DNA from: Confluentibacter flavum
Lineage (GTDB): Bacteria; Bacteroidota; Bacteroidia; Flavobacteriales; Flavobacteriaceae
DNA: 64,000 bases
Direction: 5' to 3'
Assembly: GCF_002843175.1 (NCBI RefSeq)
Contig: NZ_PJEO01000034.1
Location: forward strand, 1-64,000
Shown here: positions 16,513-30,156 of the stretch, one piece after another
How the letters are laid out: the number at the start of each line of letters is the position of its first letter
Numbering within the stretch: the stretch's first letter is position 1
Position numbers and translations under genes: made by a program
Notes under the pieces: model-generated
The model's input: the letters and a program-made list of their open reading frames with translations, nothing else
Told to the model about the DNA's origin: nothing
Databases searched by the model: none

Positions 16513-17181
16513 ATGAGTAAAATAGGAGTTATATTCGATTTAGATGGTGTTATTGTAGACACCGCAAAATACCATTATTTGGCTTGGAAAAACCTTGCAG
16601 ATAGTTTGGACTTTGAATTTACCGAAGCGCATAACGAGTTGTTAAAAGGTGTGAGTCGTGTAAGGTCGTTAGAAATTTTGTTAGATATCGGGAAAGTTCA
16701 ATTATCCGAACAAAAAAAACAAGAGATATTAATTAGTAAAAACGAAGAATATCTTGGATATATAATGAAAATGAATACGGATGAAATTCTTCCTGGTGCA
16801 GAAAAACTGCTAAATACTTTAGATGATTTAGGTGTCAACTACGTACTAGGTTCCGCAAGTAAAAATGCCGAATTAATTTTAAAACAAGTTGGGTTATACC
16901 ATCGTTTTTTTGGGATTGTAGATGGCAATGCTGTTTCAAAAGCAAAACCAGACCCCGAAGTGTTTTTAATTGGAGCCAAAAAACTGAATCTTCTTCCTGA
17001 AAGCTGTATCGTATTTGAAGATGCCATTGCAGGTATTGAAGCCGCTAATAAAGCAAATATGACTTCTGTAGGAATTGGAGATAAAGAAACCCTTAAAGAA
17101 GCCGATTTTAATTTTAATAGTTTAATAGAAATACCTGAAGATTTTTTCAGCAGATTTCTTTCAGAAAAAATTAAAAAATAA
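16513..17181 (+). CDS. pgmB: Beta-phosphoglucomutase
   Basis: A 222-residue cytoplasmic HAD-superfamily enzyme that converts beta-glucose-1-phosphate to glucose-6-phosphate. The nucleophile and acid/base are D9 and D11 in FDLDGVIVD. The cap-domain signature (HYLAWKNLADSL, LLKGVSRVRSLEILL) and the GSASKNAELILKQ and KPDPEVFL motifs are those of beta-PGM. The stop codon overlaps the start of the maltose phosphorylase gene (TAATG), so the two are translationally coupled. This fits their joint pathway, since the phosphorylase makes the substrate of this enzyme. Confidence 0.93.
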   Translation: MSKIGVIFDLDGVIVDTAKYHYLAWKNLADSLDFEFTEAHNELLKGVSRVRSLEILLDIGKVQLSEQKKQEILISKNEEYLGYIMKMNTDEILPGAEKLLNTLDDLGVNYVLGSASKNAELILKQVGLYHRFFGIVDGNAVSKAKPDPEVFLIGAKKLNLLPESCIVFEDAIAGIEAANKANMTSVGIGDKETLKEADFNFNSLIEIPEDFFSRFLSEKIKK

Positions 17182-19490
17182 TGAATCAAGATTATATAAA
17201 ACCAGATCATTGGTCAATTATAGAAGAAGGGTTTGATGCATCTCGCGTTAAGTCTTCTGAGAGTTTATTTAGTATTGGCAATGGTGCCATGGGGCAACGT
17301 GCAAATTTTGAAGAGCAGTATTCTGGTCATACCTTTCAAGGGAGTTACATAGCAGGCGTTTATTACCCAGACAAAACCAGAGTGGGGTGGTGGAAAAATG
17401 GCTATCCAGAATATTTTGCCAAGGTACTTAATGCCCCAAGTTGGATTGGGATTGATGTTATTGTAAATGGCGAGCCACTCGATTTATATATGTGTAAAAA
17501 AGTAGAAGACTTTAAGAGGGAACTTAACATGAAAGAAGGTTGGTTGTCAAGAAGTTTTAACGCAACACTTCAAAATAATACGATAATTCATGTTGAAGCA
17601 AAACGCTTTTTAAGTTTAGAATTTGACGAACTTGGGGCTATTCAATACCGTGTGAAACCTATAAATATAGATGCAGAAATTATATTTCAGCCTTATTTAA
17701 GTAGTGGCATTAGCAATAAAGACACGAATTGGGATGATAAGTTTTGGGATACCTTACACGTAAAACACGAAAATCAACAAGCCTTTATTCAGGCAAAAAC
17801 CATGAAGACAGATTTTCATACCTGTACATTTATGGAATCTCAATTATTTTTAAACGAAAAAGAAGTTGTTTTACTGCCAAGTGTTAAAACCACCGAAACA
17901 TCCATTTCTTTTAGTTTTAAACAGCAAGTAAAAGCAAATGAAACAGTTGCCATTCATAAGTTTGGTGGTTATACAGTAGATAGAAACCACGAAAAAGAGG
18001 AATTAATTTCAGCAGCAAAAAACGTATTAAAAACCGCTGTGAATTTAGGTTTTAACGCCTTGTTAGAAACCCAAAAACAGGCTTGGGCAAACATTTGGGA
18101 CATGGCCGATATAACCATTCAAGACGATGTAAAAGCACAACAAGGCATCCGTTTTAATATTTTTCAATTAAATCAAACCTATTTAGGTAAAGATTCGCGT
18201 TTAAATATAGGGCCTAAAGGTTTTACAGGTGAAAAATATGGGGGCAGTACCTATTGGGATACCGAAGCCTATTGCATCCCGTTTTACATGGCAACAAAAA
18301 ATCAGCAAGTGGCAAAAAACCTATTGGAATACCGCTATAATCATTTAGAAAAAGCCATTGAAAATGCCCAAAAGTTAGGTTTTAAAAACGGAGCAGCTTT
18401 ATACCCAATGGTAACCATGAATGGTGAAGAATGCCATAACGAATGGGAAATTACGTTTGAAGAAATACATAGAAATGGTGCCATTGCTTTTGCTATTTAT
18501 AATTACCACCGCTATACGGGAGATTATAGTTATATACCAGAAAAAGGCTTAGAGGTTTTAATAGGGATTGCTCGTTTTTGGCAACAACGTGCTACATTTT
18601 CAACAGACAAAAACCAGTATGTTATTTTAGGTGTTACGGGACCTAATGAATATGAAAACAACGTCAACAATAATTTTTATACCAATTATTTAGCACAGTG
18701 GTGTATTTATTATGCTTTAGAAAATATTAGTAAGATTGAAGCAGATTATCTTCCAGATTATACCCGAATAATGAGTAAGGTCCACTTATCTGAAAGTGAA
18801 TTAATAGATTGGAAAGCAGTTGCAGAGAATATGTATTTTCCATATTCTGAAAAGCATCAAGTCTATTTACAGCAAGATGGTTTTTTAGATAAAGAATTAA
18901 TTACGGTGACCGATTTAGATAAATCGCATCGTCCCATCAATCAAAAATGGAGTTGGGATAGAATCTTGCGCTCGCCTTATATAAAACAAGCCGATACCTT
19001 ACAGGGATTATATTTTTTTGAAGAACATTTTTCTATAGAAGAATTAGAACGTCATTTCGATTTTTATGAACCATTTACAGTTCACGAAAGTTCGTTATCG
19101 CCTTGTGTACACAGTATACAAGCTGCGAAGTTAGATAGAATGGAACAGGCTTATACCTTTTATTTAAGAACATCGCGTTTAGATTTAGACGATTATAACC
19201 ACGAAGTTCACGAAGGACTACACACAACGTCTATGGCTGGAACTTGGATGAGTATTGTAGAAGGTTTTGGAGGTATGCGTGTTAAAAATAACACGTTGTC
19301 ATTTACACCAAAAATACCAAAACAATGGGAAGGGTATTCGTTCAAAGTGAATTTTAGAAACCATATTTTGAAGGTAAGTGTTAATCAAAATCAAACAAAT
19401 TTTGAATTAATAAGCGGTGATGTACTAGAAATTTTAGTGAACAATAAGTCTCTAGTGCTCCAAAAGAAACAATTGCAAACATTAAATTAA
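17181..19490 (+). CDS. GH65 maltose phosphorylase (family 65 glycosidase)
   Basis: A 769-residue cytoplasmic enzyme that splits maltose with phosphate into glucose and beta-glucose-1-phosphate. It has the GH65 N-terminal beta-sandwich (about 1-270), a linker, the (alpha/alpha)6 barrel (about 310-690) and a small C-terminal beta-domain. E421 in CHNEWEITFEEIHRNG sits where the GH65 general acid is found. No signal peptide is seen. It is coupled to pgmB by a 1-nt overlap. Kojibiose or trehalose phosphorylase activity cannot be excluded, but the amylolytic context favours maltose. Confidence 0.92.
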   Translation: MNQDYIKPDHWSIIEEGFDASRVKSSESLFSIGNGAMGQRANFEEQYSGHTFQGSYIAGVYYPDKTRVGWWKNGYPEYFAKVLNAPSWIGIDVIVNGEPLDLYMCKKVEDFKRELNMKEGWLSRSFNATLQNNTIIHVEAKRFLSLEFDELGAIQYRVKPINIDAEIIFQPYLSSGISNKDTNWDDKFWDTLHVKHENQQAFIQAKTMKTDFHTCTFMESQLFLNEKEVVLLPSVKTTETSISFSFKQQVKANETVAIHKFGGYTVDRNHEKEELISAAKNVLKTAVNLGFNALLETQKQAWANIWDMADITIQDDVKAQQGIRFNIFQLNQTYLGKDSRLNIGPKGFTGEKYGGSTYWDTEAYCIPFYMATKNQQVAKNLLEYRYNHLEKAIENAQKLGFKNGAALYPMVTMNGEECHNEWEITFEEIHRNGAIAFAIYNYHRYTGDYSYIPEKGLEVLIGIARFWQQRATFSTDKNQYVILGVTGPNEYENNVNNNFYTNYLAQWCIYYALENISKIEADYLPDYTRIMSKVHLSESELIDWKAVAENMYFPYSEKHQVYLQQDGFLDKELITVTDLDKSHRPINQKWSWDRILRSPYIKQADTLQGLYFFEEHFSIEELERHFDFYEPFTVHESSLSPCVHSIQAAKLDRMEQAYTFYLRTSRLDLDDYNHEVHEGLHTTSMAGTWMSIVEGFGGMRVKNNTLSFTPKIPKQWEGYSFKVNFRNHILKVSVNQNQTNFELISGDVLEILVNNKSLVLQKKQLQTLN

Positions 19491-19524
19491 TGTATTGTTT
19501 AGTACGTATAATTTTAAAAATTAA

Positions 19525-21642
<2,118 letters not shown>

Positions 21643-21663
21643 TGAAATTAAAAAAATAGACTT

Positions 21664-23580
21664 ATGAATTACCATCTAAAAAAGAAACAAAGAGGTAAGC
21701 AATTAATTTTTATTGTTTTAATATTTCTATTTATGGGCATGTTAGGACATGCTCAATTAGAACGGGTTGAGCCATTAAATTGGTGGGTGGGTTTTAACAA
21801 TCCTCAATTGCAATTGTTGGTAAAACACCCAAATATTTCTGAAGCTATGCCTAGTATATTGTATAAAGGCGTTACTGTTAAAAAAGTTCATAAAGCCGAT
21901 AGTCCTAATTATTTATTTATCGATTTAGAAATAGATAAAACGACTAAAGCAGGAACATTTGATATCGTATTTAAGTTTAAAAATGGCAATGAAATAAAAC
22001 AGCCATACCAATTTAAAGCAAGACCAAAATCCGCAGAAAATTATGTAGGATTTAATAGTTCGGATGCTATTTATTTGATTACACCCGATAGGTTTGCAAA
22101 TGGAGACGCATCTAATGATGTAAACCAAGATTTACTGGAAAAAACTATCGACAGAACCAACGATTATGCACGACATGGAGGTGACATAAAAGGAATTACA
22201 AATCATTTAAATTATATTGAAGATTTGGGATTTACGGCTATTTGGCCCTGTCCATTATTAACTAATGATATGCCTCAAAGCTCGTATCATGGTTATGCCA
22301 TGACTGATTTTTATGAAATAGACCCACGTTTTGGAACTCTAACGGAATACATAGAATTATCTCATGCTGCACAAAAAAAAGGGATTAAATTAATTATGGA
22401 TCAAGTGGCAAATCATTGTGGCTTGGAACACTGGTGGATGAAAGATTTACCTTTTAAAGATTGGGTAAATTATCAAAAAAACTATGAAGACAATAAAGCT
22501 AATTGGAATGATAAAGTAACCATTACTTCTAATCACAGGAGAACCACAAACCAAGATAGATACGCTTCAAAAAATGACCATGAAGAAATGGTTAATGGTT
22601 GGTTTGTTCCTGGAATGCCCGATTTAAACCAACGTAATCCGTTTATGGCAAAATACATCATTCAAAATAGTATTTGGTGGATTGAAATTGCTGGTTTAGG
22701 TGGTATTCGTCAAGATACCTATCCATATCCAGATAAAGATTTTATGAGCCAATGGGCAGGAGCTATTATGAACGAATATCCAAAATTTAGTATAGTAGGA
22801 GAAGAATGGAGCACAAATCCTCTACTTATTGGTTATTGGCAAAAGGATGCTAATAACAAAGACGGGTATCAGTCCAATTTGAAATCGCCTATGGATTTTG
22901 CCATGCAAAACCAAATAGTGAATGGGTTGAATGAAAGGGAAAGTTGGGATACCGGCTTAGTTAAAATGTATGACGGGTTGGCAAACGACTTTCATTATAC
23001 AGCTCCTAAAGACATTATGATTTTTCCAGATAACCATGATATGAGTCGTATTTTTACCCAATTGAAAGAAGATGTAGTTAATACCAAAATGGCACTGGCA
23101 TACATCTTAACATTGCCTAGAATTCCACAAATATATTACGGCACTGAAATTTTAATGAACGATACCGCAAAACCAGGAGATCATGGTTTAATACGTACCG
23201 ATTTTCCTGGAGGTTGGGAAGGGGATGACGCAAATGCGTTTACAGGTGAAGGCTTAAACGAAGCCCAAAAAGATATGCAATCCTTTGTAAAAAAAGTGTT
23301 GAACTATCGCAAAACCAGCAAAGCCATTCATGAAGGGAAAACCATTCATTTTGCACCAAAAGAAGGTGTTTATGTACTGTTTCGAATGGCAGAAAACGAA
23401 ACGGTAGTTCATATCATTAATAAAAATGAAACACCAATTAAATTGGATTTAAAAAGATTTGAAGAAGTTGGTTTAGGAGGAAAAATGGTGAAAAATATTA
23501 TTAGTAGCGAACAATTTATTTGGGAAGATAGTATAGCTATAAACAGTAAAGGAAGTATTTTGTTAACAACAAAAAAATAA
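21664..23580 (+). CDS. GH13 cyclomaltodextrinase/neopullulanase-like enzyme, SusA-like
   Basis: A 638-residue exported, probably periplasmic, alpha-glucan hydrolase. It has a membrane-spanning signal segment (about 12-31), an N-terminal cyclomaltodextrinase-type domain (about 32-120, LERVEPLNWWVGFNNP), a GH13 barrel and a C-terminal beta-domain. The catalytic triad is D351 (IRQDTYPY), E380 (VGEEWSTNP) and D456 (PDNHDM). The preceding gene ends 21 nt upstream. It would cut imported oligosaccharides or cyclodextrins to pieces that the GH97 enzyme finishes. Confidence 0.9.
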   Translation: MNYHLKKKQRGKQLIFIVLIFLFMGMLGHAQLERVEPLNWWVGFNNPQLQLLVKHPNISEAMPSILYKGVTVKKVHKADSPNYLFIDLEIDKTTKAGTFDIVFKFKNGNEIKQPYQFKARPKSAENYVGFNSSDAIYLITPDRFANGDASNDVNQDLLEKTIDRTNDYARHGGDIKGITNHLNYIEDLGFTAIWPCPLLTNDMPQSSYHGYAMTDFYEIDPRFGTLTEYIELSHAAQKKGIKLIMDQVANHCGLEHWWMKDLPFKDWVNYQKNYEDNKANWNDKVTITSNHRRTTNQDRYASKNDHEEMVNGWFVPGMPDLNQRNPFMAKYIIQNSIWWIEIAGLGGIRQDTYPYPDKDFMSQWAGAIMNEYPKFSIVGEEWSTNPLLIGYWQKDANNKDGYQSNLKSPMDFAMQNQIVNGLNERESWDTGLVKMYDGLANDFHYTAPKDIMIFPDNHDMSRIFTQLKEDVVNTKMALAYILTLPRIPQIYYGTEILMNDTAKPGDHGLIRTDFPGGWEGDDANAFTGEGLNEAQKDMQSFVKKVLNYRKTSKAIHEGKTIHFAPKEGVYVLFRMAENETVVHIINKNETPIKLDLKRFEEVGLGGKMVKNIISSEQFIWEDSIAINSKGSILLTTKK

Positions 23581-23585
23581 AAGTT

Positions 23586-25025
23586 ATGATGAAAAAAATA
23601 ATATCGCTGGTTCTTATTATAGGATTCGTTTTCTATTCATGTAAAAATGAACAAAAAACTGAAGAAAAAAGAATTCCAACAGTTACAGAAATTGCTCCAG
23701 TATCTCCCGAGATGATGAAAAATGCTGTTATTTATGAAGCAAATATTCGTCAGTATTCACCAGAAGGCACATTTAATGCTTTTGCTAAAGACATCCCGGT
23801 ACTAAAAGAATTAGGTGTCAAAATAATTTGGTTAATGCCCATAAATCCCATTTCTAAGATTAAAAGAAAAGCTACAGGAGACAAATTTACATCAGAGATT
23901 GAAGACGAAAATGAACGTAAAAAATACTTAGGAAGTTACTATTCAGTATCCGATTATAAAGCAATAAATCCAGAGTTTGGCACGCTTGAAGATTTTAAAA
24001 ATTTAATCAATAAAGCGCACGAAAACGGCATATATGTTATAGTAGATTGGGTACCAAATCATACAGGTTGGGATCACCCTTGGATAACTGCGCATCCTGA
24101 TTATTACACGCAAAATGACAGAGGAGACATTATCGATCCGATAAATCCAGATACGGGCGAATCTTGGGGTTGGACCGATACCGCTGATTTGAATTATGAT
24201 AATATGAACATGCGCAAAGACATGATTTCAGACTTAACTTATTGGGTAAAAGAAGCCAATATAGATGGCTACAGAATGGATGTTGCTCATAAAGTTCCTG
24301 TTGATTTTTTTGAAACAGTATCCACCGAGTTAAAAAAAATAAAACCAGTATTTATGCTGGCAGAAGCGGAACAGCCCGATTTATTAATTAACGCTTTCGA
24401 TATGCAATACGGTTGGGAAGCACATCATATTTTTAATAAAATTTCTAAAGGAGAAATGACCGTTAAAGATTTTGATGACTATATGGTTAAAATCGATACT
24501 ACCTTACAAGATGATGATATTAATATGAATTTTGTGACCAACCATGATGAAAACTCATGGAATGGCACATTAAAAGAACGTATGCCAGACAACAAAAACA
24601 TATTTACAGCACTAACTTACATGATGCCAGGAATGCCATTAATTTATTCTGGACAAGAATATGATTTAAACCATAGATTAAAGTTTTTTGAAAAAGATTC
24701 CATTCCAAAAACAAAAGGAAACTATTTTGAATTATTAAAAAAACTGGGGCAACTTAAAAACTCAAATCCAGCTTTAAATGGAGGCAAAGTAGCAGCCCTT
24801 TATGAACGGATTGATACAAAAAACGACCAAGTTTTAATGTTTGAAAGAAGTAAAGGAGAAAATAAGGTGATATTTATTGGTAATTTTTCCAATAACGAAC
24901 AAACTGTAAAAGACATTGGTTTGGGTAAAATGCTAGATTATATTGCCGCCAAGAACTTAGAATTTAATAAAAAAGACATTGTTTTAGCACCTTGGGAATA
25001 TAGAATATTGATTAGACAGGAGTAA
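23586..25025 (+). CDS. GH13 alpha-amylase-family lipoprotein
   Basis: A 479-residue lipoprotein (lipobox FYSC, C19) with a GH13 barrel starting near residue 45. The triad is D232 (YRMDVAH), E260 (LAEAEQPD) and D321 (TNHDENSW). A short C-terminal beta-domain follows. The missing N-terminal carbohydrate module and the lipid anchor suggest a membrane-bound oligosaccharide hydrolase. It starts 5 nt after the upstream GH13 gene and is the last gene of the operon before a strong terminator. A glucosyltransferase activity of related GH13 lipoproteins cannot be excluded. Confidence 0.88.
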   Translation: MMKKIISLVLIIGFVFYSCKNEQKTEEKRIPTVTEIAPVSPEMMKNAVIYEANIRQYSPEGTFNAFAKDIPVLKELGVKIIWLMPINPISKIKRKATGDKFTSEIEDENERKKYLGSYYSVSDYKAINPEFGTLEDFKNLINKAHENGIYVIVDWVPNHTGWDHPWITAHPDYYTQNDRGDIIDPINPDTGESWGWTDTADLNYDNMNMRKDMISDLTYWVKEANIDGYRMDVAHKVPVDFFETVSTELKKIKPVFMLAEAEQPDLLINAFDMQYGWEAHHIFNKISKGEMTVKDFDDYMVKIDTTLQDDDINMNFVTNHDENSWNGTLKERMPDNKNIFTALTYMMPGMPLIYSGQEYDLNHRLKFFEKDSIPKTKGNYFELLKKLGQLKNSNPALNGGKVAALYERIDTKNDQVLMFERSKGENKVIFIGNFSNNEQTVKDIGLGKMLDYIAAKNLEFNKKDIVLAPWEYRILIRQE

Positions 25026-25090: not shown

Positions 25091-25549
25091 CTAGAACAAA
25101 CCTAGCCTAACACTTGGCGTATTAACTCTAACATTTGTGCCCATCGTAGTTCTGTGTCTTGGATATCTTTCATAATAGTAACCTTGATATCCATAGTAGT
25201 AGAAAGAGGCATGATGATAGTAATAATCACTATGATGACAATGATGGTTACAATGCTCATAATGGTTAGCGTAAGCCGCTTTTTTACGTTTCATGTAGGC
25301 TTTGTAAGCTTTTTTGTCCTTTCGTTTTAAATCGTTTTCATAGTTTTTTTGTTCTTCCCAAAACTTTTCTTCTTCAGCTTTGTTTTTTGAACTAAATCCT
25401 TGTTCATATTTTGCATCTTCTTCAGCTCTTTCTTGATAATATGATTTTTTATCAACGGTTGCTTCATTTGAGATGTCATTATCTTGGGCATTTGTTATAA
25501 ACGAAAAACTTAATACGATAACAAATACCATTGTTTTTATTAGTTTCAT
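25091..25549 (-). CDS. Secreted His/Tyr-rich hypothetical protein
   Basis: A 152-residue protein of unknown function. It has a clean signal peptide (cleavage near NAQ, residue 22), a charged helical middle (about 30-90) rich in Lys and Glu, then a segment about 95-130 very rich in His and Tyr (NHYEHCNHHCHHSDYYYHH) that could bind metal ions. It has its own copy of the 29-nt motif GTAGGGTAAA-N11-GTGTCTTA ending 28 nt before its start, so it is a candidate target of the ECF sigma factor encoded at 28456. Confidence 0.7.
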   Translation of the reverse strand: MKLIKTMVFVIVLSFSFITNAQDNDISNEATVDKKSYYQERAEEDAKYEQGFSSKNKAEEEKFWEEQKNYENDLKRKDKKAYKAYMKRKKAAYANHYEHCNHHCHHSDYYYHHASFYYYGYQGYYYERYPRHRTTMGTNVRVNTPSVRLGLF

Positions 25550-25577: not shown

Positions 25578-25606
25578 TAAGACACTTTAAATGCATTTTA
25601 CCCTAC
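25578..25606 (-). promoter_or_regulatory. ECF-type promoter motif, copy 1
   Basis: On the minus strand it reads GTAGGGTAAA, 11 nt, GTGTCTTA (29 nt in all). Copies 2-4 (28224-28252, 28388-28416, 29198-29226) have the same two boxes and exactly the same spacing. It precedes the His/Tyr-rich secreted protein gene. Confidence 0.7.
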
Positions 25607-25634
25607 CTGTTTTTAGGATTTATTTAAGTTTTTT

Positions 25635-26213
25635 CTAAAAATCAAATCCTAGAGAAAATTGCCAAACCCTGTTTTTAGGATGGCCTTCATCATAAACATT
25701 TCCTAGACCTAAGTGGTAACGAACTCCTAAACTTACCCCAGAGTCTGTTTTAAATCCAGCACCTAAATTAAGGCCCCAATCAAAGTTATCTGGTTCAAAT
25801 TCTTGCGATGTATCAAACAGATTAAAGTTACTGTCAAATTCTTCTTTATGTGAAATAGCCAATCCAACTTGTGGGCCAACTTCTAAGAAGACGTTTTCAT
25901 CTGGATATAATTTTAGTAATAATGGTAAGTTTATGTAATCAATCTTTTGCGTGAAGGTTCCACTGTCATCCCTTAATTCATAACCTTGTAGCGAGTATAA
26001 AAGTTCGATTTGGAATGATGTGCTTTCCGATATGAATGATTCGCCATAAAAACCGATATGAAATCCGTGTCTTTGTCCGGTTTCCGTATCTCCATCAAAA
26101 CTTACCGCGGCTAAGTTGTAACCGCCTTTGATACCTGCGTTAGATTGTTCTGTTTGAGCTTGTACTGTTAGCGTTGCGCTTAGTATAAATAAGAATTTTA
26201 AAATCGTTTTCAT
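25635..26213 (-). CDS. Outer-membrane beta-barrel (porin-like) protein
   Basis: A 192-residue exported protein with a signal peptide (to about VQAQ, residue 20) and alternating beta-strands typical of the PF13568-like small barrels (GIKGGYNLA at the mature start, KLYPDENVFLEVGPQVGL in the middle, aromatic C-terminal residue in LGFDF). It probably sits in the outer membrane; the function is unknown. It follows the metalloprotease gene by 30 nt and likely shares its transcript. Confidence 0.8.
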   Translation of the reverse strand: MKTILKFLFILSATLTVQAQTEQSNAGIKGGYNLAAVSFDGDTETGQRHGFHIGFYGESFISESTSFQIELLYSLQGYELRDDSGTFTQKIDYINLPLLLKLYPDENVFLEVGPQVGLAISHKEEFDSNFNLFDTSQEFEPDNFDWGLNLGAGFKTDSGVSLGVRYHLGLGNVYDEGHPKNRVWQFSLGFDF

Positions 26214-26243
26214 TGTCTTATGTTTTTAAAAGTTAAGTAATTT

Positions 26244-27014
26244 TTATTTTCCGCCGTTTGCTTGCAAATCGGCAATGCATTTTGCATCAAGTTGTGGTGC
26301 TGTGCTCGCCCCTACTAAGTTTGATAATCCCGAACCGTTTTCGGCAGCCCAATACATCAAGCAACTTTCAACGTTGCAATGCTTGACATGTTCAGGATCT
26401 TCATGATTTTCAACCATGTTGGAACCTAGGTTTGTCAGGCCGAGTAAATGCCCGAATTCGTGCGTTACTACTGTGGTTTCTAAAACACTTCTATTAGGTT
26501 CAAAAGTACTGTTGCTTAACTCCTGAATGGTTTCTTCAAAAATCACGAATGATGTATTTCTATAAGCCGTTCCTAAAACAGCTCCAGAATTTGTGGTGTT
26601 TTCAGAAGCTCCATCAATAAAAAGAGCCCAAACAGCTATTTGATTATTTATGTTGTACTTAGTTCGGTGGGCATCTTCAATAGCAATAATGTCTTGATTT
26701 GTATAAGATGTTTTTCCTGTGGAGGCAATAGCTCTCGTTTCAACAGTAATACCATTAGGTTTGAAAGTTCTGGCATTTAAAAAAGAAACAAAATTATCAA
26801 TGGTATTTTGAGATGGCTTTAAGCCTTCAACATAAACCAATTCAATAACCAAACTTTTAAAGGTGTTGTCAGATAATAGATCGTGCGAGGAACTTCCAGT
26901 TGCTTTTTGGTTTTCATGTTTATTATTGGTTTCATCAACCGTTTTCAAATCGTCATCTTTTGAACAAGCCGCTAAAACGATTATGATGCAAACTATTTTC
27001 AATATTTTTTTCAT
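26244..27014 (-). CDS. Metzincin-like lipoprotein metalloprotease
   Basis: A 256-residue lipoprotein (lipobox LAAC, C17) with zinc-protease motif HEFGH at 185-189 and a following GLTNLG. The usual third ligand place of the extended HExxHxxGxxH motif is Asn (N195), but a downstream NHEDPEHVKHC...SCLMYW block resembles the Cys/His-rich and Met-turn segments of Bacteroidota membrane metalloproteases, so activity is likely. It is predicted to be anchored in the cell envelope; the substrate is unknown. It lies between a lipoprotein gene and a porin-like gene, all read leftward. Confidence 0.8.
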   Translation of the reverse strand: MKKILKIVCIIIVLAACSKDDDLKTVDETNNKHENQKATGSSSHDLLSDNTFKSLVIELVYVEGLKPSQNTIDNFVSFLNARTFKPNGITVETRAIASTGKTSYTNQDIIAIEDAHRTKYNINNQIAVWALFIDGASENTTNSGAVLGTAYRNTSFVIFEETIQELSNSTFEPNRSVLETTVVTHEFGHLLGLTNLGSNMVENHEDPEHVKHCNVESCLMYWAAENGSGLSNLVGASTAPQLDAKCIADLQANGGK

Positions 27015-27036
27015 GTTATTTTTATTTTAAATATAA

Positions 27037-27062
27037 GCAGCTGTTAGTTTCCCAACAGCTGC
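27037..27062 (-). terminator. Hairpin between the 347-residue lipoprotein gene and the metalloprotease gene
   Basis: Perfect 9-bp stem GCAGCTGTT / AACAGCTGC with an 8-nt loop. A second short stem (GTTGGTT / AACCAAC) lies about 20 nt to its right. Neither is followed by a long U-run, so they may protect RNA ends or cause weak termination. Confidence 0.45.
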
Positions 27063-27113
27063 TCCACCATACAAGTTGGTTACCAAACCAACCTACCAAA
27101 AATTAAATAAATA

Positions 27114-28157
27114 CTAAATTTGGGTCAAAACCAGTGTTACGGCAGCATTAGTTGTACTTTTTAAAGAGATAGATGTGTTACTAAAGCTTGTTACTTCCCA
27201 ATTATGGTTAAGTAAACTAAATGTTGCATTTCCTGAAAAAGTTAAGTCTAAGAATACTTCAGTTTCTGATGTCACTTCATAAGTACCCTCTACAGTACTA
27301 ATCGTTGAGTTTACTGCTGTACATGTTTTGTCGTTTGCGAAATCTATAGTATAGTTTGCATAATCTGTGGCTTTTTCTACGCCAGCATTTACAAAAGATT
27401 GTACTTTAAAAGCGCCATCAACTATAATGGTTTCTAGATTTTTTGCTTCAGCTTCAGCTGTATCTTCAGCTTCTTCAACATCTAAACAATCGCTAATACT
27501 TGCTTGTAAATCTAAATCGCTAGTTATGGAAATAACGGTTTCATTATTTAAGGTTGCCGCAATAGGGTAGTTAATAGCGAACAATTCATTGTTTCCTAAG
27601 TTATTCATGTAAGCATATAATTCTTGCTCTGATTCAATAACTACACTGCCGGTTTGTTCCAGATTTAAGCTATACGTTAAAATAGTGATCGGGAAATCAA
27701 TATCGATACAAGAAATAGCACTCTTTCCTTCATTTTCAACCGTTTCACAAGCATCAATTAATGCATCGTATTCCGCTTGATTGGCAACTTGTACCTCGGT
27801 GTAATTACTCATTTTAACAGTTAAAGGAAATTGTAGTGTAACCACATCATCATCATTAGTAATTTCTCCTAAAATATTTAAAACTAATTGATAATCAGAC
27901 TGTGTTAGTATGGATACTTGCGTACCATTAACATTGGCGACCACAGGAAGTAATATAGATGAACAAGACATGCCGTCTATAAAATCATCAAAACTTCCAT
28001 CATACATACTAGAACGTTCTAGGTTGCTGGCTGTTTGAGAGTTTGCCGCATTCGTGTTTGGGTTTTGTCCGTTCTCACTATCCAATTCGTCTTGACAGGA
28101 TGTGAATGCCAAAAAAGTGACTAATAAAATTGATGTAATACTTTTTAAATTTTTCAT
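27114..28157 (-). CDS. Secreted lipoprotein of unknown function
   Basis: A 347-residue lipoprotein (lipobox FTSC, C21). The middle has two repeats of a roughly 75-residue unit marked by FPLTVKMSNYTEVQV or YPIAATLNNETVISI followed by a conserved Cys near DACE or DCLD; a third related unit lies between them. The C-terminal about 110 residues (FKVQSFVNAG to the end) look like a beta-rich lipocalin-like domain. Two motif copies (28224-28252 and 28388-28416) precede it, so it is a probable target of the adjacent ECF sigma factor. The role is unknown. Confidence 0.7.
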   Translation of the reverse strand: MKNLKSITSILLVTFLAFTSCQDELDSENGQNPNTNAANSQTASNLERSSMYDGSFDDFIDGMSCSSILLPVVANVNGTQVSILTQSDYQLVLNILGEITNDDDVVTLQFPLTVKMSNYTEVQVANQAEYDALIDACETVENEGKSAISCIDIDFPITILTYSLNLEQTGSVVIESEQELYAYMNNLGNNELFAINYPIAATLNNETVISITSDLDLQASISDCLDVEEAEDTAEAEAKNLETIIVDGAFKVQSFVNAGVEKATDYANYTIDFANDKTCTAVNSTISTVEGTYEVTSETEVFLDLTFSGNATFSLLNHNWEVTSFSNTSISLKSTTNAAVTLVLTQI

Positions 28158-28193
28158 GATAATAGTTTTTAGGGTTAATAATTTTTATTCTTT

Positions 28194-28358
28194 TTAATAG
28201 CGATTTTTTACGCTTTCTGTAATTAAGACAACTGGGTTTAAATTTACCCTACCTTTTATTTTAATTACTTTTCTAAATAGACTGAAAACATTAAGTATGG
28301 TGCTAAAACCTTGCTTAATTCTATATCTATCAGTTTTAATAATATGTTTCGTTTTCAT
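28194..28358 (-). CDS. Possible 54-residue basic peptide
   Basis: An open frame beginning MKTKHIIKTDRYRIKQ and ending SVKNRY, rich in Lys and Arg, with no signal peptide or known motif. Its ATG lies 29 nt downstream of ECF-type motif copy 3, nearly the same distance as the 25549 gene from copy 1. Against it: it overlaps motif copy 2, it is short, and no homologue is known to me. It may instead be part of a long leader of the lipoprotein gene. Confidence 0.22.
   Translation of the reverse strand: MKTKHIIKTDRYRIKQGFSTILNVFSLFRKVIKIKGRVNLNPVVLITESVKNRY
28224..28252 (-). promoter_or_regulatory. ECF-type promoter motif, copy 2
   Basis: On the minus strand GTAGGGTAAA, 11 nt, TTGTCTTA. It lies 66 nt before the ATG of the lipoprotein gene at 28157. 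Confidence 0.7.
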
Positions 28359-28387
28359 CTTTTTTTATACTTTGGAATTGTTATTAT

Positions 28388-28416
28388 TAAGACACCTATA
28401 AATAATTTTACCCTAC
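28388..28416 (-). promoter_or_regulatory. ECF-type promoter motif, copy 3
   Basis: On the minus strand GTAGGGTAAA, 11 nt, GTGTCTTA. It points away from the sigma-factor gene, whose start is only 40 nt to the right, and toward the lipoprotein gene and the small open frame at 28194-28358. Confidence 0.65.
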
Positions 28417-28455
28417 TTTTGTAAAGTAAATTAAATTTATAGAAAGTACTAGTTT

Positions 28456-28971
28456 ATGAATAACAACAAGCCCATGCTTTGTGAAGAAACCTATTTTAAT
28501 CATTTTTATTTAGAACATGTACAGCATGCGAGTAATTTTGCTTATTACAAATGCGGCGACAAGGATCATGCACTGGATTTAGTTCAAGACGCGTTTTCTA
28601 AAATATGGGAAAATTGCTCTAAAATAGATTTTACAAAAGCTAAGACCTATTTGTTTACCACGGTTAATAATTTGTTTTTAAACAACGTTAAACATAATAA
28701 AGTGGTTTTAGAATATGCTAAAGCGGCACCTTATATTGATAAAACAAACGAAAGCCCGGAATATTTATTAGAAGAAGAAGAATTTAAAAAGAAACTTCAA
28801 AACGCCATTTCATTATTAACGGATGCACAACGCGAAGTATTTTTATTAAATCGGATTGACGGAAAGAAATACAGGGAAATAGCCGAATTATTAGACGTTT
28901 CCCAAAAAGCGGTTGAAAAAAGAATGTCCGGGGCATTAAAAATTTTAAGGGAACACATAGAAAATATTTAA
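28456..28971 (+). CDS. ECF RNA polymerase sigma factor (FecI-like)
   Basis: A 171-residue sigma-70-family factor with region 2 (about 15-75, NFAYYKCGDKDHALDLVQDAFSKIWE) and region 4 (about 112-168, LLTDAQREVFLLNRIDGKKYREIAELLDVSQKAVEKRM). The following FecR-like and TonB-receptor genes give the classic Bacteroidota surface-signalling trio. A 273-nt gap with repeats separates it from the fecR-like start. Four identical-spacing promoter motifs in the neighbourhood, including one directly before fecR, are its likely targets. Confidence 0.92.
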   Translation: MNNNKPMLCEETYFNHFYLEHVQHASNFAYYKCGDKDHALDLVQDAFSKIWENCSKIDFTKAKTYLFTTVNNLFLNNVKHNKVVLEYAKAAPYIDKTNESPEYLLEEEEFKKKLQNAISLLTDAQREVFLLNRIDGKKYREIAELLDVSQKAVEKRMSGALKILREHIENI

Positions 28972-28980
28972 TCTAAATAA

Positions 28981-29075
28981 TTCCCCAATGGCTCTGCCTC
29001 GGGGTTTGCAAATCACCTTTCCTTTGGAGAGGTCAGACCTACCCAAAAAGGCAGTTCTGGGTGAGGTGAAGTAGA
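28981..29075 (+). repeat. Intergenic REP-like sequence
   Basis: The stretch contains short complementary blocks such as CTTTCCTTTGGAGAGG and CACCT...AGGTG, with GGGTGAGGTGA at its right part. It has higher GC than its surroundings and no reading frame. Sequences of this look occur between genes in many flavobacterial genomes; copy number here cannot be checked. Confidence 0.4.
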
Positions 29076-29152
29076 GAATTTTGATTTTTAGCCCAAAGGT
29101 CAAAATGAAATGGATTAAAGATATCTAAGTCTATGCCTTGAGTATAGTTCGT

Positions 29153-29197
29153 TTTGAAGAATTCTTTATTTTAAGTTTGAAGAATTCTTTATTTAAG
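29153..29197. repeat. Tandem repeat upstream of the fecR promoter
   Basis: Two units (23 and 22 nt) of TTTGAAGAATTCTTTATTTT/AAG, the second lacking one T, abut each other and end 1 nt before ECF motif copy 4. Each contains the palindrome AAGAATTCTT. They could be paired regulator sites or a recent slippage duplication. Confidence 0.75.
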
Positions 29198-29226
29198 GTA
29201 GGGTAAATTTAAATGTAGTTGTCTTA
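29198..29226 (+). promoter_or_regulatory. ECF-type promoter motif, copy 4
   Basis: GTAGGGTAAA, 11 nt, TTGTCTTA on the plus strand, ending 18 nt before the fecR-like ATG at 29245. It suggests that the anti-sigma and receptor genes are transcribed by the sigma factor they regulate. Confidence 0.7.
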
Positions 29227-29244: not shown

Positions 29245-30156
29245 ATGAAAAATGAAAATAACATATTAAAGTGGTTAAATAATGAGCTTTCTGAAGAAGA
29301 AGTTAAAGATTTGAAGCAATCTGAAAACCTTGAAACTTTAGAGAAAATAGCTTTTTATGCCTCACAAATGCAAGCGCCAAAAATGGATGCGCAACAGGCT
29401 TTGGATGCTTTTAAAGAAAGAAACCTTTCTAAAAAAGAAACCAAAGTCATTCCATTAAACTTTAAAACGTTTATGCGCGTTGCTGCTGTTCTTGTGGTGA
29501 TGCTAGCATCGTCTTATTTTTTATTCTTCAACAATGCAAAATCTTTTGAAACCCACATAGCACAAACGCAAAACGTCACGTTGCCTGATGCTTCCGAAGT
29601 TATTTTAAACGCCCAATCTACACTAAAGTACAATAAGAAAACTTGGAAAGATACACGTGATTTAGAATTAAGCGGCGAGGCCTTTTTTAAAGTTAGCAAA
29701 GGACAAAAATTTACGGTAAATACCCCTGTAGGAACGGTTCAAGTGTTAGGGACCCAATTTAACGTAAAAGAACGCCCCAATTACTTTGAAGTACAATGTT
29801 ATGAAGGATTGGTAGCTGTAACTTATAACAATAAAACCCTGAAATTATCCAAGGGAAAATCGTTTAGGGTGTTGAATGAAACCATTCAAGTAGTTGAAGA
29901 TTTTAATGCTGAAAATCCGTCGTGGTTGCAAGCCGAATCAAGTTTTGATAAGATTCCGTTAAGCCAAGTCGTAAGTGAATTAGAAAGACAATACGACTTA
30001 AATGTTGATTATGAGGCTGTTGATGGGTCACAATTATTTACAGGTGCATTTACACATTCAGATAAAAATATTGCGTTACAATCTATTACCATCCCTTTAA
30101 AATTAAGTTATAAAATAGAAGGTAGAAACGTTACGTTATATAACTATGGAAAATAG
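29245..30156 (+). CDS. FecR-family anti-sigma regulator
   Basis: A 303-residue inner-membrane regulator. It has a short cytoplasmic N-terminus (about 1-75), one transmembrane helix (RVAAVLVVMLASSYFLFF), a periplasmic FecR domain (about 105-200, VTLPDASEVILNAQSTLKY, LSGEAFFKV, VLGTQFNVKE) and a C-terminal DUF4974-like domain that contacts the receptor. The ATG at 29245 is preferred over an upstream in-frame TTG because the promoter motif ends at 29226. It overlaps the receptor gene by 11 nt. Confidence 0.9.
   Translation: MKNENNILKWLNNELSEEEVKDLKQSENLETLEKIAFYASQMQAPKMDAQQALDAFKERNLSKKETKVIPLNFKTFMRVAAVLVVMLASSYFLFFNNAKSFETHIAQTQNVTLPDASEVILNAQSTLKYNKKTWKDTRDLELSGEAFFKVSKGQKFTVNTPVGTVQVLGTQFNVKERPNYFEVQCYEGLVAVTYNNKTLKLSKGKSFRVLNETIQVVEDFNAENPSWLQAESSFDKIPLSQVVSELERQYDLNVDYEAVDGSQLFTGAFTHSDKNIALQSITIPLKLSYKIEGRNVTLYNYGK

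Follow-up and report, generated by a model that had tools for sequence, protein, structure and literature searches.

Among the closest described systems, the ECF sigma factor FecI of Escherichia coli acts at the fecA promoter, without autoregulation of the fecIR genes; HasI of Serratia controls the anti-sigma gene hasS but not its own gene hasI (PMC9249621). The ECF/anti-sigma pairs of Bacteroides polysaccharide utilisation include a two-domain anti-sigma factor contacting a SusC-like receptor, and the same study of Bacteroides regulation considered ECF promoter prediction without mapped start sites to be difficult (PMC3878776). The mapped SM6 promoters of Flavobacterium psychrophilum are of ECF type, have a conserved CGT in the -10 element and precede type IX secretion targets (PMC9723704). 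Few ECF regulons have been defined in the family Flavobacteriaceae.

The analysed window, 64,000 nt of DNA from Confluentibacter flavum, contains four exact copies of the motif GTAGGGTAAA-N11-KTGTCTTA at 25578, 28224 and 28388 (minus strand) and 29198 (plus strand); every copy spans 29 nt and has an 11-nt gap between its boxes. A pattern search confirmed the coordinates, strands and length of these copies given in an earlier sequence-only reading. All of them lie inside 3.65 kb adjoining an ECF sigma factor gene, and they are very probably promoters of this sigma factor, acting in FecI/FecR/FecA-type cell-surface signalling. Recognition by this sigma factor, the transcript starts and the direction of signal flow are what we infer from the comparisons below. 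The locus comprises:

25091-25549, minus strand: His/Tyr-rich secreted protein, 152 aa; no significant Pfam/NCBIfam match
25578-25606, minus strand: predicted promoter of the His/Tyr-rich gene; exact motif, predicted start 25572
25635-26213, minus strand: small outer-membrane beta-barrel protein, 192 aa; PF13568, E=1.6e-22
26244-27014, minus strand: putative lipoprotein with the zinc-protease motif HEFGHLLGL; weak metzincin-type Pfam/NCBIfam matches below cut-offs
27114-28157, minus strand: lipoprotein of 347 aa containing repeats; C-terminal barrel predicted to be lipocalin-like; AlphaFold2 model, pLDDT 84
28224-28252, minus strand: predicted promoter of the lipoprotein-protease-barrel operon; exact motif, predicted start 28218
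28388-28416, minus strand: upstream copy of a tandem pair, preceding a small ORF in relatives; exact motif, predicted start 28382
28456-28971, plus strand: gene for the ECF sigma factor (171 aa); matches to PF04542 and PF08281 exceed the cut-offs
28972-29193, plus strand: dispersed-repeat copy lying past the sigma stop codon and ahead of the fecR promoter; not present in two Confluentibacter relatives
29198-29226, plus strand: predicted promoter of fecR and the receptor gene; exact motif, predicted start 29232
29245-30156, plus strand: fecR-like anti-sigma gene, 303 aa; PF04773 (E=4.4e-19) and PF16344
30146-32710, plus strand: TonB-dependent transducer, 854 aa; CarbopepD_reg_2 and plug (Pfam), N-terminal signalling domain

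The sigma factor, the FecR-like protein and the TonB-dependent receptor are encoded in this order on the plus strand, and the order is kept in orthologous loci. Divergently from the sigma gene, the minus strand encodes the lipoprotein, the protease-like lipoprotein and the small barrel, followed by the His/Tyr-rich secreted protein. The only sigma regions in the sigma protein are 2 and 4 (PF04542 and PF08281/PF04545, scoring above cut-offs), and the protein matches solved ECF sigma factors by sequence, which places it in this group; against the NCBIfam model TIGR02985 (Bacteroidetes sigma-70 subfamily 1) it is a close outlier, with 120.2 bits at a cut-off of 126.4. A FecR-like anti-sigma gene adjoins the sigma gene, as in FecI/FecR/FecA-type systems. 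The N-terminus of the receptor (residues 1-111; model built on 22 orthologues, pLDDT 83) is predicted to fold as a signalling domain of the FecA/FpvA/FoxA type: its residues 25-98 matched the signalling domains of FoxA, FecA, PupA and FpvA with Z of 9-9.7 and rmsd of 1.9-2.8 over about 70 residues. Nothing credible was obtained in a PDB sequence search with this N-terminus, and fold comparison alone was informative. Since the N-terminus fits signalling domains, the receptor is probably a transducer of the FecA kind and not a plain transporter. The TonB receptor recognised beside fecR in the sequence-only reading is retained, corrected to a TonB-dependent transducer with no SusD partner among the genes read. 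A SusC/SusD polysaccharide utilisation locus was considered and rejected, since the receptor scored 57.6 bits against the SusC/RagA model TIGR04056 (cut-off 368) and no SusD-like product was recognised among the neighbouring ORFs read.

Like the E. coli Fec system, the locus has an ECF sigma factor, a FecR-type regulator and a TonB receptor with a signalling domain and a sigma-dependent promoter (here predicted), and the sigma gene is not self-activated (PMC9249621). Unlike in Fec, fecR lies behind a predicted sigma-dependent promoter together with the receptor gene, and the putative targets include the divergent lipoprotein-protease-barrel operon and the secreted protein, which is unlinked in some genomes. 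An anti-sigma gene under the sigma factor (again predicted) and a sigma gene that is not autoregulated are shared with the heme system HasI/HasS/HasR of Serratia, whereas none of the genes read was recognised as encoding a heme carrier and an extra surface-protein operon is present. The layout thus appears to combine Fec and Has, with both receptor and anti-sigma factor under the sigma factor and the sigma gene outside. The ECF/anti-sigma pairs of Bacteroides come from the same phylum, but the module conserved here is without a SusD partner or glycan enzymes. The SM6 promoters, of the same family, are likewise of ECF type; compared on the -10 element and targets, the present sites differ, having TTGTCTTA as the -10 box and other targets. 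Given its CGT -10 element and type IX secretion targets, the SM6 class appears to be a different one. No report of the motif was found in the searchable literature, that is, outside subscription journals and the supplementary tables of ECF classification. A text search for the motif letters returned unrelated papers alone, apparently with primer sequences, and the literature search found no paper on an ECF promoter motif with FecR in Flavobacterium.

The motif is rare and tied to the module. It was absent from 100 dinucleotide shuffles, and the whole genome (4,136,527 bases) contained no matches with up to two mismatches beyond the four copies. At exactly three mismatches there were 4 further matches versus 22 for the reversed control pattern, and therefore the looser matches are background. 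Thus, in the genome-wide scan proposed in the sequence-only reading, the motif proved not to be scattered randomly, and the regulon in this genome is limited to one locus. The adjacent starch/maltodextrin-type genes (17181-25025), tried as further members, were dropped because no motif was found in front of them. In 397 Flavobacteriaceae genomes the exact motif was found 66 times, in 31 genomes, and the reversed control once.

With the sigma protein as query, 80 orthologous loci were retrieved, which represent 15 named Flavobacteriaceae genera and have sigma factors 66-94% identical. The presence of the motif next to orthologous sigma genes, another check proposed earlier, was observed in 80 of 80 loci (at least one copy with up to two mismatches), at the same places as in the window, and the gene set of the module is kept in divergent orientation. 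With up to three mismatches, the fecR-side copy was found in 77 of the 80 loci, plus locus L106, and is weaker in L108 and L109 (at least 4 mismatches). The lipoprotein-side copy was likewise found in 77 of 80, plus L106; the gaps concern L061, whose contig leaves just 261 bases ahead of the sigma gene, and L079, which is cut inside this gene. No plus-strand copy directed into the sigma gene was present in the orthologous loci. When one genome was taken per genus (100 in total), the exact motif occurred in all 8 with an orthologous lipoprotein (E<1e-130) and in none of the 92 others (Fisher probability of about 5e-12, with phylogenetic dependence left in).

With 21 matches to the Bacteroidetes sigma-family model in the genome, a further sigma factor might also recognise the sites. 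Paralogous modules on contigs C31 (locus L137) and C32 (L138) have the receptor, FecR and a divergent lipoprotein relative in the same arrangement; upstream of fecR their boxes have diverged, reading GTAGGAAAAA-N11-CTGTTATA in C31 and CAGGAGAA...GTTGTTATA of the same length in C32, as aligned by eye. Paralogous modules of other genomes, with sigma factors 45-62% identical, carry GTAGGGTAAA or nearly so, often with the ending TTGTTTTA. The arrangement thus amounts to a family of modules in which the promoter boxes change along with the module; the near-identical -35 box of related modules means that specificity may be common to close paralogues. Even so, it is unlikely that the sites are real promoters read mainly by another or several of the ECF sigma factors of this genome, since the exact motif tracks the module (8/8 versus 0/92 genomes) and the other sigma loci of this genome contained no comparable motif, the nearest being the diverged sites upstream of fecR. 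In a simple test, no sigma residues cleanly separated TGTC from TGTT promoters at the cut-offs applied, with some paralogue classes assigned roughly. Near-identical -35 and differing -10 boxes among paralogues provide naturally occurring material for asking how sister sigma factors are kept apart.

The internal structure of the sites is promoter-like. In the orthologous loci, the half-sites TAGGGTAA and GTCTT were 14 nt apart in 140 of 140 pairs when distances of 0-39 nt were scanned, with 0.16 pairs expected by chance at any one distance, and the spacer sequence between the boxes varied freely. Flavobacterium is the dominant genus among the 80 loci; therefore, start-site statistics were taken from 20 representative loci. 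A pyrimidine-purine (YR) step occupied motif positions 34-35 in 58 of their 61 sites, and A was found at position 37 in 97%. The YR start signal sits 6 nt past GTCTTA. The sequence-only reading had expected transcripts to start about 7 nt after this box: a fixed start signal is indeed present, with the likely distance being 6 nt after the last base. The YR step at a fixed distance is a trait of start sites and is not required of an operator. The -35-like box, 10 nt long and very strongly conserved, is kept as strictly as an operator could be. Nevertheless, a role as operators, bound by an activator or repressor of their own while the housekeeping sigma factor serves transcription, is very improbable for sites that are asymmetric, directed toward genes, invariant in box spacing and followed by YR at a fixed 6 nt, the more so as the conserved module contains no other regulator gene. 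The predicted transcription start also bears on the gene start: fecR should begin at ATG 29245 and not at TTG 29230 of the listed ORF, because this upstream codon overlaps the predicted transcription start. The Bacteroides study calls such prediction hard; here, comparison alone yields a full promoter together with its constant spacer length, the position of the start and a set of targets.

Although the four copies are within 3.7 kb and two of them are in tandem, leftovers of a dispersed repeat or of local duplication are next to inconceivable, since only the boxes are alike while the 11-nt spacers and flanks differ, the boxes are kept over 15 genera and at unlinked genes elsewhere, and the true dispersed repeat beside one copy has a different sequence. 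This repeat, which partly matches seven further genomic sites, interrupts the region between the sigma gene and fecR: in two Confluentibacter relatives about 10 nt separate the sigma stop codon from the fecR promoter, and the window has about 215 nt more. The fecR promoter and the bases downstream of it are kept despite the insertion.

Spacing, gene-ward orientation, the start signal, co-occurrence with the module and unlinked targets together support the ECF sigma regulon proposed in the sequence-only reading. In the proposed mechanism, the outer-membrane TonB-dependent transducer would sense a ligand, and its periplasmic signalling domain would pass the signal to the FecR-like protein, which would free or activate the sigma factor. 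The latter could then direct RNA polymerase to GTAGGGTAAA (-35) and TTGTCTTA (-10), with transcription starting 6 nt downstream. Expression of fecR and the receptor would rise, and with it that of the lipoprotein-protease-barrel operon and of the gene for the His/Tyr-rich secreted protein. No motif copy serves the sigma gene, and therefore the loop would amplify the brake and the receptor, not the sigma factor.

The lipoprotein that begins the divergent operon had no Pfam or NCBIfam match, and a PDB sequence search with its profile found nothing. In the model, its residues 231-347 match lipocalin-like chains with Z of about 11. Potempin E was among the fold matches; a link of this barrel to protease inhibitors is only a lead, because the lipocalin-like fold is common. 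The protease-like lipoprotein is a conserved neighbour in orthologous loci. Distant relatives of the first lipoprotein were present in 68 of 100 genomes of the family and, where checked, mostly adjoined ECF sigma genes.

Two copies, 164 nt apart, lie on the lipoprotein side. They had been described as both preceding the lipoprotein; their location is correct, while in relatives the upstream copy stands in front of a small ORF of its own. In 13 of these (L037, L038, L042, L047, L049, L051-L056, L058 and L076), a peptide of 30-42 aa with one hydrophobic span is encoded between the tandem minus-strand copies, usually with its ATG about 30 nt past the upstream motif. The peptide is probably translated and under selection, because nonsynonymous change was below synonymous change in 10 of the 10 pairs compared (pooled pN/pS 0.39). 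In five species its stop codon TAG forms part of GTAGGG in the -35 box of the next promoter. Comparison with Pfam and NCBIfam gave nothing above a curated cut-off. The best reading of the upstream copy is as a promoter for this peptide. Neither the window nor L036 preserves the frame, and the window ORF at this place encodes an unrelated sequence; the copy of the window is apparently a remnant, which may still feed the operon. More tentatively, the upstream copy might express this unannotated single-span membrane peptide as a feedback part of signalling, for example on FecR or the receptor, that was lost in the lineage of the window while its promoter was kept. The small membrane peptide seems to have been overlooked so far and would be a new component open to direct test.

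Relatives of the His/Tyr-rich protein were found in 53 of 397 genomes of the family, and its orthologues keep the upstream motif whether or not they are linked to the module. Genes were regarded as unlinked if they were not beside the barrel or protease genes (1.5-kb flanks) and the best FecR match was on another contig or thousands of bases off. In 11 genomes the gene lies away from the module with the motif 64-89 nt upstream; the motif has at most two mismatches in 8 of them and 3-4 mismatches with the TTGTTTTA ending in the other 3. In genome G024, approximately 380 kb separates the gene from the FecR match. Judged by these upstream sites, the His/Tyr-rich gene is a predicted target in trans. 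Some genomes may have further unlinked targets. Off-module copies of the motif or its TTGTTTTA variant were observed at L145:4858-4886, L140:4680-4708, L143:6155-6183 and L144:6398-6426; in L140, L143 and L144 the copy is followed by a gene for an acidic lipoprotein-like protein.
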